Part shown: positions 5,386-34,459 of the stretch, piece after piece
Layout: every line of letters starts with the position of its first letter
How positions within the stretch are numbered: position 1 is the stretch's first letter
From: Massariosphaeria phaeospora
Lineage: Eukaryota; Ascomycota; Dothideomycetes; Pleosporales
DNA length: 64,000 bases
Direction: 5' to 3'
Assembly: GCA_011032825.1 (NCBI GenBank)
Contig: JAADJZ010000006.1
Coordinates: forward strand, 992,001 to 1,056,000
The notes under the pieces: generated by a model
Seen by the model: only the letters and a program-made list of their open reading frames with translations
The model's database searches: none
Told to the model about the DNA's origin: nothing
Translations under genes and position numbers: made by a program

Positions 5386-5953
5386 GAATCGCGCGTCTGC
5401 TGTTGGTGTGTGCACATTGCCCGCCCCGCCTCCACTTGATGGCGCATCCATGATCGGTTGTGGCGGGATGATTGGGCCGCCAGCATCAAAAGAAGAGAGA
5501 TGCTAGGTGATTTATGACTTCCCACTTTGATTTTTGTATGAGAGTACGAGCGTCTTCTTGATATCCGTGTTTTGTATTTGCAACTAGCTATCGTGAAGGT
5601 TGTAGGGCACATGTGCGAAAAGTGGTAGAACTCACGCCACGAGTTACTTGATATGTATATACCACATTAGACGGCGTCCGGTAACAAATGCTTCAAGGCA
5701 TAATAGATTTCCAGCAACGGTTTCAATGGCTCGCAATACCTACGGCGGCTTGCTACGCCGTTAGCGCGACGATGTTCAGACGAAAGAGGTAACGACGCCT
5801 ACGTATGCGCCTTCCCTCTGTCCCTCCGTCCCGAACAGCTTTTTCGTTTTCTGTTCATACACACCAGTCATCTCAATTCATCTCGGCCATCGGTGGCCGT
5901 CGAGTCTGCATTTCCTGTTGTGTTGCCTATGGTCTACGATACGTGTGACAGTA
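5386..5953. other. Intergenic region, promoter of the Mer3 gene
   Basis: No coding signal is recognised. The stretch contains the 3' flank of the transporter and the upstream region of the helicase gene. The last 150 bases are pyrimidine-rich, as is usual just upstream of fungal starts. Confidence 0.45.
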
Positions 5954-12023: not shown

Positions 12024-14914
12024 TTAGCGGAGCCAGGGACCTCGCTTGCCTGCGCTACCGGTGCTGGAGCCCCCTCGGCCCTCTTCGAGGCTGCGTCTAG
12101 AGCCTGCGCCTATCTCACTCATTTGGAAGAGGAGCGGTTCGTCATCGTCGAGCGAAGCGTGGCGGTTGGCAAAGCTATATCGGCTTTGGCGCTCTGTCGA
12201 GCTGGTGCCGCCTGTGGTGAGGCTTGTCGAGGAGCTAGACGAGAAGCCTCCTCGGCCGCGGCTGCTTCCGGAATAGGTTCCTCGTTTCGCGGGGAGATCG
12301 GAAGTCGACAAAGGACGAGGCATGTCGTCGCGAGAATCTTGTGTGCTCAAAGCACCAGGGAGCTGATCATCACGGCTAGCGCTGGCGAGAAGCTCTGTCT
12401 GTGCGAACAGTCCACTGGAAGTAAGGTTGGTAGCAGCTTTCCGTTGCAGACCTCTTTGACGATCGACCTCCTCGGGTGGTACACTTGCTGAACGTAGACC
12501 ATAAAGGTCAGGCTCGTCTTCCATAGTGCGATTCTGCTGGGCTACCGAGCTAGATCGACGAGGATAGTTCCATGGCCGTGGGGAAGTAGGGATGTCGATA
12601 GCATTGCTTCCTTGCTCTTCACCGTCACTGTGTTCCTGCACATCAACAGTTTCCTGCCCCCGCGATGTGTGGCTAGGTCGACTCCGGCTTCGCCTCGGTT
12701 CATATTCAATGATACTATTCGCGCTCAGGCGTGATGGAATGGCTGGGGTGTGAGGCGTATGAGGCGAGATCGGCTTTCCTGGCGAGGAAGCAGTAGAAAC
12801 CGAGGTACCAGCAATCATTGCGGGGACGCTTGTCAACTGTCGGCTTGAAGATGATGATGATCGATGTAGCATCGTTGAAGATGACAGAGAATCTGAGAAC
12901 GCTGAATGATCACCCCTTCGCTGCTGGTATTTTGACAGTTGAGCAGTTGTCTTGCGCATAGCAGCATCTCGAGATGCATTATCATTTCGACTGAAACTTT
13001 TCAGGTCTTTTTTCTGCTCAAGTAGTTTGAGAAAGTCGGAGATGTTTTCGTCATCGGTTTTGATGGAGCCAGAGCTGGCGCCTTCACCTTCGTTAAGCAT
13101 ATCAGACCCGGGTTGTTGCGACGAGGTAACACTGCCCTTGCCACTACTATTGTTCTCATCTTCGGTCTTACTTCCGCCACCAGAAGAGAATCGGCTTCTT
13201 CTATGGCCAAAGCTGCTACTATATCGAGTGATTGGCGCCGGCTTAGGTGAGCTAGAAGCAGACGAGGTAACAGCGGCTTCATTTGGCAGTGACGATGGTG
13301 CTCTTAGAGCTGTTTGGGGAAGTGCTGTCAACGACGTGCGATTCCGTGGTTGGTTCAGTGCGCTGGGTGTAGTTGCCCGTCCGACTGAGCTGCTCGGCCT
13401 CCCAAGCGAGCCTACCGGGGATGGAGGAATCATCGAACCTGGGCCAGGCGACGAGGACAGCGAGCCAGCTTTGAAAGGTTGGAAAGAGACTGACGTACGT
13501 CTCTGGTAAGATGGAGCATCAGCAGATCGCAGCGAGGACTTTGACCCTTGCGCAGTGCGGTGATTTGGAGGGAGTTTTTGTGGCGGTGAATCTATTGGAG
13601 ACGACGAAGGCATGTCCCGCGCGGCGCGGAGAGCTGACATTGGGCTTGTTCCCGTTGGAGGGGCGACCTGATGAAAAGTTGACATGCTCCCGTACGCCTG
13701 ACCTACCTCTGGGGTCCCTTGTGCATGGAGCTTGTTGACGGGGAGGGAGCCTGGTACCTGCCCAACATCACGGTTGGGTTGGTCGAAATAATTGTCGTCT
13801 AACCCCATGAATTGAGAGCTAAGCAGTGACTCGGAATCATCAACGCTAAATTCGCAGTTGGTGCGATACTCCACTGATATAGCCAAGGGGCCGACCGGTG
13901 AATTGGATGGTGCGAATTCCTGCACGTCGGTGACACTTTCGGAGGAGGTGTATAGTGGGATACTTAATGTATCAGGCCGAGGACTCTTGAAGTCGCCGTT
14001 CGAGATGCGGTAGTTGAGTTTCAGAGACGGATGGTTCGCAGGTTGTTTCGCAATGCTCTTGCAGTACTTGAAGGTTGGGAGAAACCGAAGATAAGCATAT
14101 AAGGAGCGGAACAGGACCACCGCCTTCTTGTACACGTTAGGAAGTGGGTCCGTTAACTCGGAAGGTTGCACAGAGCTTTTATCTCCTACTTGAATCTTCC
14201 ATCGCTCCAGCACCAGTTGGGTGGACTTGCCTACACGACTCGGCGGTCGAGACGTCGACTCCAGTGGCACATTCAGAGCTACAGCAACATCCCATCTTTT
14301 GCCCTGGTCATCGTGTATCACCAGCGACTGCTTGTCTTCCAGTGCTTTGATGTCAAGGTATATTTCGATGCAGAGCGACGGGTGCTGGCCCAGCATCGCA
14401 TCCATTGTCTTCCACTCCATCAGATCTTCCGTGAGGACGTCGGTTTCATCGAGCACAACATTGAACTGTATGAATCGTTAGCGAGTGCCAGCCGCTGGAC
14501 TTCAGCATCGAGCACGTACCCATTTGTTTTGCCTAAGATCACTATTCTGATTGAAGCTCTGGGGCAGCATCATCCTAGAGGAAATGATTGTAAGCGCTGC
14601 TTTAGTAAAGAAATTCTGCGTCTGGGTTAGCCGAATGTACATGACACTTTGTGTAACGTCGGCGGCGAGCGTACCTGTATGACCTGGTTCACCTTCCTCT
14701 GATCCGCGTCAGAGACGCGCTCCGTGCGAGTCATCAACTCGCCTTCGCCGTCGTCGGTGCCGCGGTCGCTGTACGAAGCCATGTCTGAGAAGGGCGAGGA
14801 CCGGTTGGAATAGGGATAATAGGAATCCCGCTGGTTGTTTGTTCGAGTAGGATTTGTCTGGAGGTTGTTGGCGGCGGCAGCCGTCCTCGGCGAGGGGCGC
14901 GATTGCGGGTGCAT
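12024..14914 (-). CDS. ATG13: Autophagy-related protein 13 (Atg13)
   Basis: Exons complement(12024..14465, 14520..14621, 14675..14914) give about 927 aa. Atg13 is the regulatory subunit of the Atg1 kinase complex that starts autophagosome formation and responds to TOR phosphorylation. The N-terminal HORMA domain spans roughly residues 70-340: KVNQVIQ, then TQNFFTKAALTIISSR in exon 2, then FNVVLDETDVLTEDLMEWK, ERWKIQV, and a Ser/Pro-rich link to AISVEYRTNCEFSVDDSESLLSSQFMG. The remaining 550 residues are Ser/Pro-rich and predicted disordered, as in the family, where they hold the Atg1- and Atg17-binding segments and many phosphorylation sites. The two introns (53 and 54 nt) have standard signals. 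Adding exons 1 and 2 restores the start of the HORMA fold, which the long third exon lacks. Confidence 0.93.
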
Positions 14915-24546: not shown

Positions 24547-25825
24547 TGCAGGTGGTGTGCTACCCAGAACAGCCTGCGGTGTGGTCGATAGGCTTGCCTT
24601 AAGTCTGGGGAGGTGTTGTGTATGGACCGCGGGTGTTGCGGCCAGCGTCGGCTCAGTCGCGTGCCTCCATTCTTTCGGCGCTCAGCCTTACCGACGTCAG
24701 CGCCGCGGTCTGTGGCTGAGACAATCACCAGCCACTCAATCAATCAATTAGCTAACAATGTTTGTTTCACAGAGCGTCTGTGCAATATGTTTGCTATATT
24801 CCTTATTATAAAGATAGAATACTCTACCTTTGTAGTTCTGTTAGCTGTTGAGGCAGTACGCTGATAGACACGGCTTCGCAAAGGACCTAGAGAAAGATGC
24901 AAGCAAGCATGTATTCATCCCAGATATGGCAGAAGCAAACTTGGGCGCGCCTACTCGAAAGATGATTTGGAGATGAAATGCTTTTGCAGGTCCTGCGACA
25001 AGCATAGTTGTTGTAGTGGACGCGAGTTTCGGTTTCTGGAGCCGAGCTACATATTACTATATGCCAAACCGAATTTCGCCAAAATAGTCTGCATCAACAC
25101 ATGGGCATCTTCCTCCTTGTCGATACACGCGACATCCCCTCTCTTGCATAAGCTGTAGCGTGACTATCACTTGGAATGGTACGGAGTATTGGACGACATG
25201 CTGCAGAGTAGCAATCTGGACTCAGTAGCAATCTGGACTCAGTAGCAATCTGGACTCAATAGCACTCGAACGGGTTGTGGTACCCGTAAGTGAGGGATTC
25301 GGCTTTCAGAAGAAGCGCTGGGCTGGGACGCACAACTTTTCTTGTATGGCGAGCCCAAGGATGTACAGGAAGTTTCGCGGACCAACACACCGTCCACATC
25401 ACCTGCCATCCTCTCGGCTTCCGAAGCAGCAGGCCCTGCACACAGCCTGTGCGGGGAGCAGAGGTTTGTTTGAGCACAAGCAGCGCGGTTGGTTCCTGGG
25501 GGAACCATACGCGAACTGAATCCGTGCACGCTAGCTGTTGCGCGATCCTCTCTCCTCCACCCAGCCACAACAAACCGAGACACTCTCCAGGCACAAGACA
25601 CCCGCCCCAGCCTTGCATCTCGTCTCTCTCTCGCTCAATTGTGTCGTGTCGACGCTCGCGTACCTTCTCCAAGCTCCGTCACGTCGCCATGGCTGCTGCC
25701 CGCTGCTGAAGCAAGCCTGACGTGTAGCGCCGTCGCGTCGGGTGTTGGACCGTACCGTGGAACCTGCCCCTCCGTGGAATCACCACCCACCCACGCCCTC
25801 ACCTTGCCCTTACAACTTTCTACGC
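24547..25825. other. Intergenic region with a 17-bp tandem repeat
   Basis: This is the shared upstream region of the divergent E1 alpha and DBF4 genes. It includes the three-copy tandem repeat at 25207..25257. Short ORFs on both strands show no family features. Confidence 0.5.
25207..25257. repeat. Three perfect copies of a 17-bp tandem repeat
   Basis: The unit AGTAGCAATCTGGACTC occurs three times head to tail without mismatch. A fourth copy begins at 25258 with a changed base and then stops. It lies about 570 bp upstream of the DBF4 start. Confidence 0.95.
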
Positions 25826-27755: not shown

Positions 27756-28721
27756 ACATCATCACCCTTATGACATGTGCACGCCTTTTCAGCTCAAGGC
27801 ACCCCGAATTCATGAACCAGTACTACCTAAACGGCATAATTTTTCTCACCCTTTTCACTTCGTCCGCCCTCCGGCACACCCTGTTTACACTACGAATACC
27901 CAATCCGCAGCATTTTCGAGGCGCTTAATCCTTTCTTTCCGGGGACAAGGCTTGGTTGTTTGTTTCCTTAGCGGCATATCATCTGTTTTTTGGGGTGCGT
28001 ACGATGCATAAGCCATTGTATATGTTTTTCCCTCATGGCTGTTGTTTGCTCTTGCTATGGCAAAACGTTATGGCGTACTTTTAGGAAAAACGGAGTTGGT
28101 GAGCATGGCTTGGGAGTATATTTCGTGTGGGGATGGAGTCGACGATGCGGGTTGTGATACGCTGTGCGTTGCGGACCTGAGCCGAGCTGAACTGAGCTGA
28201 GCTGCGGCTATTGGTGGATATGTGTTATATCAATACGTATTAGTTATCTGAATACGTGTCAATGAGAGAGCTATCGTTCAAAGTGCAGTGTAAACTTGCA
28301 ATGTTTGCTAACGGCTAGCAGGGTTGTTTGTGCAGAGTTCTGATTGACCTTCTGCTATTAGTCTACTTTCGCCTATTCCTTCAGTAATCTAGCTGTTTCA
28401 CCCTGCGAGCGGTATGATGTGGTTTCCCGATCGTGGTCGTGGTCGCGCGGGGCTCTGATTGGTCTGGTAGGTTGGTCTCATCTAGACACGACTTCCCCAT
28501 TCCATCCATCACCTCTTTACTGATCATTCATATTAACTCTGTTCCTCATCCCCCGCAAAGCATATATCCTCGAAAACCACTCTACCTCGCAACCAGTACA
28601 ACCTCTACCGCCGCAACTCTACCTCTCCGCCCTTGTCAAACTCGCGGCTCGCTCAACTCTACATAAGTAGCTAAGCCTCACCTCAACCAATCTAATCTTC
28701 CTGGTCCACCAAGAATTCAAC
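27756..28721. other. Intergenic region, promoter of ATG12
   Basis: No coding signal is recognised. A short run of GAGCTGA-like repeats lies near 28178..28204. The last 200 bases before the ATG12 start are C/T-rich, consistent with a core promoter and 5' UTR. Confidence 0.45.
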
Positions 28722-29911: not shown

Positions 29912-31026
29912 TCAGGTTGACCTCTTCTGCTCGACCACCCTTTCAAATTCCGAGAACTCATCCTTCGGCATGGGGTACGTATGTTCAGGGGCCGGATACG
30001 TTCGGCTCTTCACCTCAGTCTTGTACGCTTGGATAGCCCTCATGCTCTCATTCCATACATTCCCGTACTGCTTGACGAACTTAGGAAGGAAGCGACCGGG
30101 AGGGAAGTTCCCCAGCATATCAATCTGCACCAAGACCTGGCCCGAGCAGCCGTTGCCCGCGCCGATGCCGATGGTGGGTATGCTGAGCTCTTGGGTGACT
30201 AGTGCTGCGACTTCGGCGGGCACGGCTTCTAGCACGACGGCGAAGGCTCCGGCTTCTTGGACGGCGAGCGCGTCGTCGAGGACCTTGAGGGCGGAGGCGG
30301 TGCTCTTTCCTTGGACGCGGAAGCCGCCGAGGGCGTTCTGCCGTTGCGGGGTGAGGCCGATGTGGGCTAGCACGGGGATGCCGGCGGTTGTGATTTTGCG
30401 GATCGTGGGCGCCATTTCTTGGCCTCCTTCGAGCTTTATGGACTTGACGCGGCCTTCCTTGACCATGCGTATGGCGGATTCGAGAGCTTGTTCTGGCGCA
30501 ATCTCGTACGTTCCCATAGGCAGATCCCCCACCTAAGATGTGTTAGCGTACTGAGCCCGCATGGTAGACTTCCAGGGAGACATACCGTGAACGCACCCTT
30601 TGTTGCTCGCGCCACGGACCGGCAATGCAGCAGCATCTCCTCCATCAGGACCTCACTGGTGTCCTCCATGCCGAGCGCAACCATGGCCAGACTATCGCCG
30701 ACCAGTATCATGTCCATGCCGGCATGGTCGGCGACGTGGGCGCTCGGGAAGTCGTGCGCGGTGATCATCGTGATAGGCTCGTTCTTGCGATAGAGCGTCT
30801 GGAGGGTGTTGATAGTCACAGGCTTGCGGGTATTGGCTGGCGTCGCACCCAGCGGCGAATGCGAACTCGACCGGATCCAAGCGAGCGGCAACGACGCATG
30901 CGACAGTCTAGGCAGCGGCGACGAGCATAGCTGGAGTTGCGCGCGCGCAATCCGCGGAAGTGTTCCGAGCGTCTTCATCATGGCACGCGACATGGCCTCG
31001 GCCTCGGAACAGCGGGTGGAGGGCAA
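29912..31026 (-). CDS. panB: 3-methyl-2-oxobutanoate hydroxymethyltransferase (PanB)
   Basis: Exons complement(29912..30532, 30586..31026) give about 353 aa. PanB makes ketopantoate from 2-oxoisovalerate and methylene-tetrahydrofolate, the first step of pantothenate and CoA synthesis; the fungal enzyme is often mitochondrial. After an Arg/Ser/Leu-rich leader of about 60 residues comes ITMITAHDFPSAHVADHAGMD, then the metal/substrate motif VGDSLAMVALGMEDTSEVLMEEM. The exon junction gives AFT-VGDLPMGTYE. Other family blocks are IKLEGGQEM, VLAHIGLTPQ, the catalytic-Glu region VVLEAVPAEVAALVTQEL, and PTIGIGAGNGCSGQVLVQIDMLG. The 53-nt intron is canonical. In-frame Mets at 30993 and 30981 are alternative starts, and some would shorten the targeting leader. 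Confidence 0.95.
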
Positions 31027-31940
31027 ATTTTGGGTGCCGCGGAATCTGCGCTGGTCCGCCAGGAGGGAAGCGAAGAAATAGCAGTCATTTTCGGGGCGTT
31101 CGCGCTTTTAAATGGGCGTTTTGTCGTGTGCTCGGTTTTGCGCTGTAGGTTGCAGAACAGTCTTTCTGTCCTCGGTTGTTCCGCAACAGTCAGCAGCGGC
31201 GGGGCTAGCGGCGTCTCCTTTGTTCGGCCTCTGCCCGGACGTTGAGATGGACGTCACCTGTCAGACAGGTCGATCAAGTTCGTGCCTAGCCTCTCCGCTG
31301 TCGCAGGGTGCGCGTTAAATAGTACAGTAGGTAGTGGTGTCGTTGCATGCCGCGAAGGCTGGGCGAGCCGTGGGGGTGAAGACGATCATCGCCTTGGATC
31401 ATTGCTCGATGCGTGCGTCGTCAGATCGCAGCTCGATAGCCGAGGTCAGGGTAGATATATGGACCAGACTGTTATTCGAGGGAGAGGATGTTGACTTTCG
31501 CCATCGTCCCCGTCGTCGCTCACTGCGAGTGTGCCTGGCCGCGGCGATCTCGGAAGTGCCTGCCACGTGCCCGGAACCTCGGCGAAGCAGCGGGGGCGAT
31601 AAATAGGTAGCTGCTTGCGTGACTACCCGGGCTCGTGACGAAGCCAGGCCCTCAGGGTACCTCACTTGCTTGACTGCACTCCAGCTACTCCCTCACTATT
31701 ACACTAACAACGGCTACTTTGCAACAATACGCCAGTCCGCCAGCCGCAACACTCTTTCTAGCTCCCGAAGCGGCTCGCCTGCCTCAGATTTACCCCGCCA
31801 ACAAAGCCGTCACCAGCAAACCAACAGTCTCCAGCTCACACCTCCACACGCGTCCGGCAGGCCAGGAAACAACCTCTGCTGCACCGACTCCTCGAACCCA
31901 CTCTCGGCTTCCAAACCACTCTCGTCGAACGCGATCCACC
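31027..31940. promoter_or_regulatory. Divergent upstream region shared by panB and UBC8
   Basis: This 0.9 kb stretch lies between two divergent starts, so it should contain both promoters. Short ORFs on both strands have no recognisable features. C/T-rich tracts precede the UBC8 start (31670..31940). Confidence 0.5.
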
Positions 31941-32971
31941 ATGAGCAGCCCAAAGAGACGCATTGAGACGGATGTAGGTCATCTTGGATAAAGGCATACG
32001 CTTGAGACATGGACACGTGCTGACGGCGGCTTTGCTGTGTGTTTAGGTCATGAAGTGGGTTCACTGCCACTGGGAGCGCAAGCGGACTGCTAACGTACAA
32101 TTAGGATGTATGTCGACTCGGGGTGCCATTAGCTTCACTCGCGGCTAGTAACTGATACACGGCAGGCTTATGAGCGACTACGAGGTTACATTAGTCAACG
32201 ATAATAGTATGATTCAATTCGATCTCTGAGTGTTGCGCTGCTAACCTTGATCATAGTGTCGGTCGCTCCGCGAGCCATGCAAGTTCTCGTCCCCGATGGT
32301 GCTAACATCCCGCAGGCAGGAGTTCTATGTCAGGTTCAAAGGACCCGAAGAGAGTAAGTGTGACTGTACTATCAGAACGTGAGACCCGCCTGACCATGAT
32401 AGCACCTTTCGCTGGCGGTCTCTGGAAGATCCACGTCGAGCTCCCCGACCAGTACCCATACAAGAGTCCCAGCATCGGCTTTGTCAACCGGATATTCCAC
32501 CCCAATATCGATGAGCTGTACGTCTACCACCTGCTTCATCGTATTCATTAGAGAATCTTTCCTCAACGGACACTGCGGCTGACTGTCTGCAGATCCGGCT
32601 CCGTCTGCCTGGACGTCATCAATCAAACATGGTCACCCATGTACGACATGATCAACATCTTCGAAGTCTTCCTCCCGCAGCTACTTCGGTACCCGAATCC
32701 CACTGATCCCCTTAACGGCGAGGCCGCGGCGCTGTTGATGCGAGAGCCGAAGGGGTATGAGAACAAGGTCAAAGGTATGGCGATCTCTGGTAGCGCATTG
32801 GGTTTCGAGGTAGACTAATGGCCCTTTTCAGAATACGTACATAAGTACGCTTCGAAGGATCGGTCCGAAGACTCCGACAAAGACGATGACGATGAGGACG
32901 AGATGAGCTCTGTCGGTAGTTACGAATCCGGCGACGAGGACGAGGCACCTGGCAACATGGAGGACATCTAG
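31941..32971 (+). CDS. UBC8: Ubiquitin-conjugating enzyme E2, Ubc8/UBE2H type, with micro-exons
   Basis: Proposed exons: 31941..31973, 32047..32054, 32105..32107, 32166..32206, 32257..32257, 32316..32353, 32403..32517, 32593..32774, 32832..32971, giving 186 aa (human UBE2H 183). Ubc8 is the E2 that works with the GID/CTLH ligase in yeast and ubiquitinates histones in vitro. The start [10 protein letters not shown] matches the family. Then follow [49 protein letters not shown] and HPNIDEL. The active-site Cys lies in [13 protein letters not shown], and an acidic tail ends in GNMEDI. Nine exons in 1 kb is extreme here. The 8-, 3- and 1-nt exons are inferred because they alone restore family residues and frame. 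The later six junctions are unambiguous. Alternatives for exon 5 are 5 nt or 26 nt. Confidence 0.9.
32047..32054 (+). other. UBC8: 8-nt micro-exon of UBC8
   Basis: The bases GTCATGAA are preceded by an acceptor ending TTTAG and followed by a GTGGGT donor. They encode Val-Met and two bases of Lys, the conserved residues after the ETD of the family start. Confidence 0.8.
32105..32107 (+). other. UBC8: 3-nt micro-exon of UBC8
   Basis: The three bases GAT sit between a near-ideal branch site and acceptor (GCTAAC, then ATTAG) and a consensus GTATGT donor. Including them gives Lys-Met-Leu-Met, so the spacing from the Val-Met/Val-Lys block to the next conserved block equals that of yeast Ubc8 and human UBE2H. 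Skipping them keeps the frame but loses one residue. Confidence 0.7.
32257..32257 (+). other. UBC8: Possible 1-nt micro-exon of UBC8
   Basis: Exon 4 ends in phase 1 (one A of a codon), and the following conserved exon needs two leading bases before GCAGGAGTTC to read Met-Gln-Glu-Phe. A single T after a strong branch/acceptor (GCTAACC, CATAG) and before GTCGGT supplies this exactly. Alternatives are a 5-nt exon (Met-Ser-Glu-Phe) or a 26-nt exon with a weak GTTCTC donor, both using the acceptor four bases later. Confidence 0.5.
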
Positions 32972-34459
32972 AAGCGTCGCTCACGTTAGCCACCGACATG
33001 TTTTCCATCTCGCTTTCGGTCAATGGCGTACCCCGGGGCTCATCACGGCGCAATTTGCGGCGCCATCTTTTGCATAGGCCGCATCAACATATATTCCCCA
33101 TGGTACCGGTTTTCGGCGCTTCGGGTGTGGGTTTGGATTCTTGTTCATTGTTTACTGTTTTCTTTGGATGGGGCCCCTAGTGTGCGACTGAGCTTGGTAT
33201 AGCATACCTCAATATTCAATCTGGTGGGGACCCCACTGGGACTTGGGCTTCGGTTCTCAGATTCGAGCAGATTCGAGGTATCGGATATGGTGGTTATGTA
33301 GAGTTGCACCGGTTCCATAGGATATTACTCTATACTCTATTTCAGTGAATCGCATGTCAATCTTCTTTTTGCGGTCGTTTGCCTCTTTGCGAATCGGCTC
33401 ATAACTTGTCTATTCCTTTCAAGTATCTCAGCCATGTATGAGCTCTCTCTTTTGGTTATTTCAGCTTGCGCGCTACCTTGCCCAACTTCACTCGTGGACT
33501 ATCTAAACAGAAGTCCGCATTTACATTTGCCTCTATCTCTAATGCCGGTGTCTGCTATAACATCTTGAGCTGCTACATACAAGGACCACTTATTGGCAGC
33601 AGATCCTCGTACCACCCGTCCGCTTACATCTACCACATAACACTTCAATTTTAGCCATGCTAGCTATCGATCAGCTCGGAGGAAGCCATCAGTGGCTTGA
33701 GAAGAAACCCCAACCAACCTAAACAACAAACAACTATCAACAACTCAAAGCAACACCCCAAACAACTTCTTCTTCAACCACTAGTCATCCAGACCAGCAA
33801 TCAATGAAAAAAATGTGTATATGTCACCCGAAGGGATGTCCAGGCTGGACTCAGGGTTCTTAACCTAGATGTGATATTACCGCAACACCAAGTGCCCTTC
33901 TCTATGGAAGTGCGTGAAGAATAAAAGAGGGTAGTGGGCAGGGAGCCTGGGGGCTTATGTATGTTGGGGACTGACGCTAGCGATAGTTAGTCAGCAAAAA
34001 ACAAGCGAGCCCCGACGTTCTCCCGGCGTCCGTAATGGGCCTAGAATGCTAATTAGTCAGCAAAAGCAAGCGATGGTGCGAAGGCGAGGAGCTGGATTGG
34101 GTCTAGTGGGATATCTAGCGAACACGGGAGGGACAGGGGCTGGGCCTGTTGGGGTTACCTAGGTAGCGGGGGTTGTTGAGCATGGCCGGCGCACCTGAAC
34201 ATTCGATATCCATGCATAGATTTGTGGCAATATTATACCTGAGGGAGCTTGGAGTTATACTCAACTTGTGTCAATGTTTGCGCAAGCTTGGAGTGTTAGT
34301 AGGTTCCAATAAAAGTGCATCTTGTCCTCGCAGTACCTGTCGATCAATCCATCGCAGGCAAACCGTTATCGATAGTCCGTGCTCCGAAATCTACCTTTGG
34401 TGACATCAACCTCGACTAAGACCACTTGCTTCTCACTACTAGTCACACCGATCACAGCA
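32972..34459. other. Intergenic region upstream of COQ3
   Basis: No gene is recognised in this 1.5 kb stretch. Two imperfect copies of a motif beginning TTAGTCAGCAAAA and ending CAAGCGA lie near 33986 and 34052. Short ORFs show no family features. Confidence 0.45.

Follow-up and report, generated by a model that had tools for sequence, protein, structure and literature searches.

An earlier note on the 64,000-nt stretch of Massariosphaeria phaeospora DNA analysed here (the window) held that the UBC8 gene within it can be followed exactly only if exons of 8, 3 and 1 nucleotides are included. This raises the question of whether a conserved protein is really assembled through exons this small and, if so, whether the arrangement belongs to one genome or to a larger group of fungi. 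The best explanation as a whole, in which we have high confidence, is that UBC8 contains micro-exons of 8, 3 and 1 nt that would be spliced by intron definition and are most likely old within Pezizomycotina.

The UBC8 gene model and its identity

The gene, which encodes a UBE2H-type E2, spans 31941..32971 on the + strand and comprises nine exons (33, 8, 3, 41, 1, 38, 115, 182 and 140 nt in order, the last including the stop) with a predicted product of 186 aa. Its introns measure 73, 50, 58, 50, 58, 49, 75 and 57 nt, and five of them, 50 to 73 nt long, interrupt the N-terminal coding part between exons 1–4, 5 and 6. The positions that the earlier note had given for the three micro-exons proved exact in every case (Table 1).

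Table 1. Exons and micro-exon-flanking introns of UBC8 in the window, with adjoining splice signals; slashes mark splice junctions.
Feature	Length (nt)	Coordinates	Strand	Remarks
Exon 1	33	31941..31973	+	ends in phase 0; donor GTAGGT
Micro-exon 2	8	32047..32054	+	GTCATGAA; V, M and two bases of K; TTTAG before, GTGGGT after
Intron 2	50	32055..32104	+	GTGGGT ... GCTAAC ... ATTAG
Micro-exon 3	3	32105..32107	+	GAT; completes K14 (Lys14), begins M15 (Met15); flanks GCTAAC..ATTAG and GTATGT
Intron 3	58	32108..32165	+	GTATGT ... GGCAG
Exon 4	41	32166..32206	+	ends with A, phase 1; donor GTATGA
Intron 4	50	32207..32256	+	GTATGA ... GCTAAC ... CATAG
Micro-exon 5	1	32257..32257	+	T; middle base of ATG of M29; CATAG before, GTCGGT after
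Intron 5	58	32258..32315	+	GTCGGT ... GCTAAC ... CGCAG
Exon 6	38	32316..32353	+	begins G + CAGGAGTTC; tandem acceptor GCAG/GCAG/
Exon 7	115	32403..32517	+	
Exon 8	182	32593..32774	+	
Exon 9	140	32832..32971	+	includes stop TAG; acidic C-terminal tail

The assignment to UBC8/UBE2H, also made from the letters alone, was borne out by searches with the product. The UQ_con domain (PF00179) scored 135.6 bits against a curated cut-off of 27, and the top solved relatives were 8pmq_E (243.5 bits; titled E2-24 kDa, which we take to be yeast Ubc8), 8pjn_2 (UBE2H, 225 bits) and 2z5d_A (UBE2H, 223.6 bits), with RAD6 (1ayz_A) sixth at 101.9 bits. The product aligned with the yeast E2 chain from residue 1 without a gap at the junctions of the 3-nt and 1-nt exons, and the alignment with human UBE2H starts at residue 3. 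By its sequence, the gene is a UBC8/UBE2H-type ubiquitin-conjugating enzyme of a filamentous ascomycete, a family that partners the GID/CTLH E3. It appears to be single-copy, as a search of the whole genome of the source fungus (42 Mb, 51 contigs) with exon 7 DNA returned one match.

Three further observations concern the surroundings. The second site of the tandem acceptor at 32316..32319, if used after the 1-nt exon, would move the frame by 4 nt. No RNA family reached its gathering score in 31500..33500. The upstream neighbour on the opposite strand (30436..31107, -) is a ketopantoate hydroxymethyltransferase (PF02548, 93.1 bits, frame residues 96-175); since its frame covers only profile positions 2-81 of 259, an intron probably follows.

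Uniqueness of the splice parse and its signals

Taking the ATG and 32353 as end points and admitting introns of 40-400 nt, we enumerated all in-frame, stop-free GT-AG parses. Among the 9851 parses obtained, 33-8-3-41-1-38 alone contains the conserved 21-residue protein stretch, which agrees with the claim that the conserved protein needs the 8-, 3- and 1-nt exons. The same parse had the top score against both P0004, a relative known from a short contig (206, next 201), and yeast Ubc8 (158, next 153), and it was still unique when introns down to 30 nt (41066 parses) or GC donors (406376 parses) were admitted. Parses in which every exon is at least 9 nt were rejected, as their best scores were 154 (GT-AG, introns at least 40 nt), 161 (introns at least 30 nt) and 171 (GC donors allowed) versus 206. 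Omission of the T shifts the frame, and omission of GAT costs one residue and keeps it. Two other candidates near the single base were also set aside: an 8-nt exon CCATGCAA (32275-32282) giving NDNTMQEF, which requires an intron shorter than 40 nt, and a 26-nt exon (32257-32282) in place of the T.

The branch sites and acceptors reported ahead of the micro-exons and the GT donors behind them are all present (Table 1), with the 1-nt exon reading AG/T/GT downstream of a branch site and between introns of 50 and 58 nt. To estimate chance occurrence, we shuffled each gap 20000 times, preserving dinucleotides and leaving its 6 leading and 22 trailing bases in place. A correct 3-nt exon (encoding K followed by M or L; CTRAY branch, YAG, GTNNG) arose in 5/20000 shuffles and a correct 1-nt exon (single T, same signals) in 10/20000, compared with 161/20000 and 1163/20000, respectively, when only bare AG..GT was demanded. 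Any frame-restoring exon of 1-20 nt with full signals appeared in the T gap in 77/20000 shuffles, and one is observed there.

Across both strands of the 64-kb window, the motif CTRAY-N4-20-YAG-(1 to 9 nt)-GTNNGT had 9 matches at 8 distinct places, three of which are the 8-, 3- and 1-nt UBC8 exons. The other five places are 24773-24775 (+, AGC), 28322-28325 (+, GGTT), 33976 (-, C), 13499-13502 (-, AGAC) and 5744-5752 (-, CAAGCCGCC); they are possible further micro-exons, including one of a single base (33976), or chance matches.

One signal points the other way. Donor preference was estimated as a background-subtracted count upstream of 195 branch-acceptor motifs in 262 kb of genome, a small sample in which GTANGT (30 vs 6.6) and GTGNGT (12 vs 5.2) stood above background and GTCNGT did not (3 vs 3.4). 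The exon 4 donor, GTATGA, rose above background only under the loosest motif (6 vs 1.6). GTCGGT after the T is a weak donor for the source genome and counts against the model; it may reflect slow or regulated use, or just the small sample. Learning splice sites by joining open frames over the 262 kb gave no settled introns (3 confident).

Intact and broken junctions in relatives

Homologues were collected with three protein searches (best 120 of 4568, 4427 and 4579), which together gave 288 distinct proteins. In two of the searches only the part from residue 46 onwards was scored, which should make their ranking largely independent of the N-terminus. As only the best 120 per search were taken from more than 4400 homologues, the counts below describe a sample, and related species within it share ancestry, so they are not independent observations. 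We split the 288 by hand into 61 short-contig proteins, 214 ncbi Pezizomycotina models, 10 proteins of other ascomycetes, 2 of plants and 1 set aside. The short-contig class has no ncbi source and contigs of up to 5261 bases, mostly about 1 kb, with one of no stated length; we take these proteins, known here as proteins, to be cDNA-like from their uninterrupted frames, source label and contig size. P0001 (our own first partial model) was left out of the counts, P0156 (128-kb contig, intact at the 1-nt junction) was placed in neither class, and the plants P0002 and P0042 were counted apart together with the ten non-Pezizomycotina proteins. Taxonomic classes were assigned from organism names, with five of them looked up.

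The two main classes differed sharply at the micro-exon junctions. Among the matches listed, the 1-nt junction was intact in 57/61 short-contig proteins, the remaining four starting either no earlier than the junction itself or within sequence that is intron-like or in another frame, versus 15/214 genome-derived Pezizomycotina models (9/188 in the subset from the residue-46-to-end searches). With the strict pattern NDNM[QS]EF, the listed counts were 52/61 and 13/214. The listed outgroups were intact throughout (10/10 other ascomycetes and 2/2 plants, with the pattern widened to [ML][QSN]EF), and both junctions were intact in all 44 listed short-contig proteins that include exon 1. The 3-nt junction was intact in 47 of the 214 listed genome models, a slightly generous figure since the pattern admits VMKRLM.

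Loss of the GAT exon leaves the frame open, and this exon could in principle be unused or present in some transcripts only, with exon 2 joined to 32166 to give VMKLMSDYEV. The corresponding skip, VM[KR]LMSD, is read in 42 of the 214 listed genome models. These 42 are taken to be gene predictions, however, whereas the GAT residue is kept in every one of the 44 listed short-contig proteins just mentioned, and the flanks of GAT are near consensus (GCTAAC..ATTAG/GAT/GTATGT), to a degree seen in 5/20000 shuffles. We consider skipping of GAT improbable, and retain it as an exon of the model.

The broken models carry a readable signature of what went wrong. In the 214 models listed, the residue following NDN is S (67), M (38), T (25), K (15), R (9), I (5) or N (2), the motif being absent from 53; the NDNS of the first group (67/214) is what read-through of A/GT gives. 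Where QEF follows after one further residue (NDN-S-x-QEF), the listed counts were SK 6, SM 6, ST 2 and single SR, SE, SG and SL, which suggests that the inner GT of a GTNNGT donor was used to mend the phase. On the acceptor side, the 143 listed models that keep QEF/SEF have R before it in 63, M in 25, V in 17, K in 10 and others in fewer, and R is the product of reading through AG/G. Among the 52 listed models with this R and no adjacent NDN, 28 have LT at most 10 residues upstream (background 0.0018 per dipeptide); LT, encoded by CTN ACN, is what a translated branch site would give. NDNS and R[QS]EF occur together in 14 single models among the matches listed. With the donor in phase 1 and the acceptor in phase 2, a single base (modulo 3) is needed between them, and in the short-contig proteins the base supplied at this junction makes an M codon.

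Models that read through the T itself should show NDNM followed by something other than [QS]EF, and 25 such candidates occur among the matches listed. T/GTNNG fits 23 of them (misses P0157 and P0235), with a residue of the T-initial codon class (F, L, S, Y, C, W) next in 24 and V second in 18. The equivalent signature of 3-nt exon read-through was found in 20/22 listed candidate models (misses P0163 and P0194). These protein patterns suggest that many related fungi share the tiny UBC8 exons and that their gene models were drawn wrongly for that reason.

Two other ways of crossing the second junction were weighed against this evidence. The second-best parse in the enumeration (201) has a 5-nt exon 5, TGTCG (32257-32261), joined to the second tandem acceptor at 32320 to read NDN-MS-EF; it is in frame and stop-free, and among the matches listed MSEF occurs in 8/61 short-contig proteins and SEF in 4/6 Pezizomycetes genome models. 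Its donor, GTCGCT, is poorer in having no G at +5, though, and the parse must use the second rather than the first AG downstream of the branch site. Among the matches listed, the nearest short-contig relatives (P0003, P0004 and P0005) read MQEF, not MSEF, NDNMQEF or NDSMQEF stands in 47 short contigs versus 8 with MSEF, and in 23/25 the read-through in relatives shows, following one T, a G-initial codon in register with +5. The earlier note had named both this exon and 32257..32282 as alternatives to the T; the longer one was rejected above, and the 5-nt exon keeps small odds as a rival.

The other possibility is that a single long non-canonical GT..CA intron (32207-32314) replaces introns 4 and 5, giving NDN-R-QEF and no 1-nt exon. 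Seven genome-derived models among the matches listed do read VNDNR[QS]EF, as this join predicts. Such an intron requires a CA acceptor, though, and gives no role to the first branch-acceptor pair GCTAACCTTGATCATAG, and a spliced aligner that paired the T with the acceptor G would presumably yield the same R error. Between NDN and [QS]EF, the listed short-contig proteins have M in 55 and R in none, the other 6 being without the pattern; one of these six, P0267, has R after intron-like sequence. We regard the GT..CA intron as very improbable, and the single T as the base that joins exons 4 and 6.

The read-through of T/GTNNG also indicates how far the exon may extend. Among the matches listed, it was found in 11/75 Dothideomycetes, 4/17 Eurotiomycetes, 2/14 Leotiomycetes, 5/93 Sordariomycetes and also in Sclerophora (Coniocybomycetes), and it was absent from the 4 Lecanoromycetes, 1 Geoglossum, 6 Pezizomycetes, 2 Lichinomycetes and Thelocarpon listed. 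The listed models of Lecanoromycetes (3/4), Geoglossum (1/1), Pezizomycetes (6/6) and Thelocarpon were broken at the 1-nt junction without this signature, while the two listed Lichinomycetes, one of them presumed to belong to that class, were intact (2/2). The 15 intact genome-derived models, including both Lichinomycetes, would have either kept the 1-nt exon or lost the introns. Given this distribution, presence of the exon is best supported in Dothideo-, Eurotio-, Leotio- and Sordariomycetes and Sclerophora, and less so elsewhere.

The same spread bears on whether an assembly error or a pseudogene, in which a lost base broke the frame, has made the 1-nt exon imaginary. A single-base indel would look alike at first sight. 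Otherwise, though, the nine exons show no damage to frame, splice signals or protein, and breaks at the same junction recur in Dothideo-, Eurotio-, Leotio-, Sordario-, Lecanoro-, Pezizo- and Coniocybomycetes, Geoglossum and Thelocarpon, if not in the two Lichinomycetes. This reading is already largely contradicted, and we find it barely conceivable. The source genome is probably not alone in having the 1-nt exon, as the proteins point to several Pezizomycotina classes. Because the read-through fits T/GTNNG in 23/25 models and the 3-nt exon in 20/22, and because short contigs are intact where gene models are broken, the micro-exons are probably old within Pezizomycotina and often misannotated, and the arrangement is perhaps ancestral to the group.

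When genomic UBC8 loci of other fungi were sought, a viral contig collection yielded 7 pattern matches, none of them a relative, and a genome contig collection yielded three prokaryotic E2-like loci (28 to 35% identity), which were set aside. Two peculiarities of the short-contig class were noted in passing. P0014, P0062 and P0103 read DESGS for DELSGS, one residue fewer, at the position of intron 7 in the window, perhaps through a 3-nt alternative splice there, and P0013 is a 233-aa UBC8 with a C-terminal-like segment ahead of its start, as from a joined or permuted contig.

Proposed splicing, precedents and meaning

A one-base exon would offer no room for the factors of both splice sites simultaneously, so each short intron would be recognised as a unit. 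The earlier argument for intron definition is upheld. Introns 4 and 5 around the T would be removed one after the other. If intron 4 left first, the new junction AATAT/GTCGGT would itself be a donor, so that the T exon would act like a recursive-splicing site with a one-base remnant. The arrangement may be held in place because the interrupted motifs, VMKMLMSDYEV and NDNMQEF, tolerate little change. What the analysis shows is the splice signals, the uniqueness of the parse and the protein signature in relatives; sequential removal under intron definition is our inference. Spliced transcripts are predicted to read ATGCAGGAG where codon 29 is joined and AAGATGCTT across codons 14 to 16; ATGTCGGAG, or a direct A/GCAG join, would be incompatible with the model.

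A more far-reaching joint reading, which we consider doubtful, is that the 8-, 3- and 1-nt exons predate the Pezizomycotina radiation and were kept as an obligate stepwise splicing checkpoint controlling GID/CTLH E2 output. That output would then hang on slow sequential intron removal, a skipped T would lead to a frameshift and message decay, and a skipped GAT would give an N-terminal isoform one residue shorter that could tune the enzyme.

One-nucleotide exons are a known kind. Arabidopsis APC11 contains one, for which a combined model of sequential removal under intron definition was proposed (PMC4674806), and those of plant APC11 and VPS55 are described as conserved throughout the land plants and absent from annotations (PMC8831610). 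As UBC8 appears to do, these genes place a single nucleotide between two introns, keep it throughout a large clade and have it left out of reference annotations; unlike UBC8, they are other genes, in plants, with RT-PCR and RNA-seq proof as described in those papers, whereas UBC8 is a fungal E2 known from protein and DNA signals, with two more micro-exons within about 210 nt (PMC4674806, PMC8831610).

The earlier note named plant precedents; fungal cases exist too, and the UBC8 exon is not the first in fungi. The Fusarium cytochrome P450 CYP621A has a 1-nt exon with RNA reads, there called the first for a fungal gene, and all listed transcripts but one are given as wrong at it (PMC12940212). 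As in UBC8, it lies in a fungal protein gene and was inferred from a phase mismatch and a conserved motif; by that account it is a G (AGGGT), in one genus and seen in RNA reads, whereas the UBC8 exon is a T, apparently in several classes (PMC12940212). SnoRNA host transcripts of Candida species contain single-base exons, with nested and recursive splicing from RNA-seq (PMC5033589). They share with UBC8 a fungal one-base exon between spliceosomal introns, but occur in yeasts, not Pezizomycotina, and in transcripts described as non-coding, so that no reading frame depends on the single base (PMC5033589). Placozoan cox1 (PMC5436844) and Ophiostoma rnl (PMC12308204) also have one exon base between two introns, but their introns are reported as mitochondrial (group II in Ophiostoma) and not removed by the spliceosome. 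The micro-exon of Trichoderma xlr2 is, like those of UBC8, from a filamentous fungus, but is described as 20 nt long, twenty times the size of the single T, and glucose-regulated (PMC11121469).

Our search of open-licence papers found no report of UBC8 micro-exons; neither this gene as a case, nor the clustering of exons of 8, 3 and 1 nt, nor their spread over Pezizomycotina appears to have been described there. If true, a 1-nt coding exon common to several fungal classes would be among the most widely conserved of that size, and it would explain why 199/214 genome-derived UBC8 proteins among the matches listed depart from the family at one junction. The gene would be a ready test case for annotators and, with its introns of 50 and 58 nt in transformable fungi, a short natural construct for studying how the spliceosome copes with an exon too small for binding at both ends, and whether removal of the two introns follows a set order.
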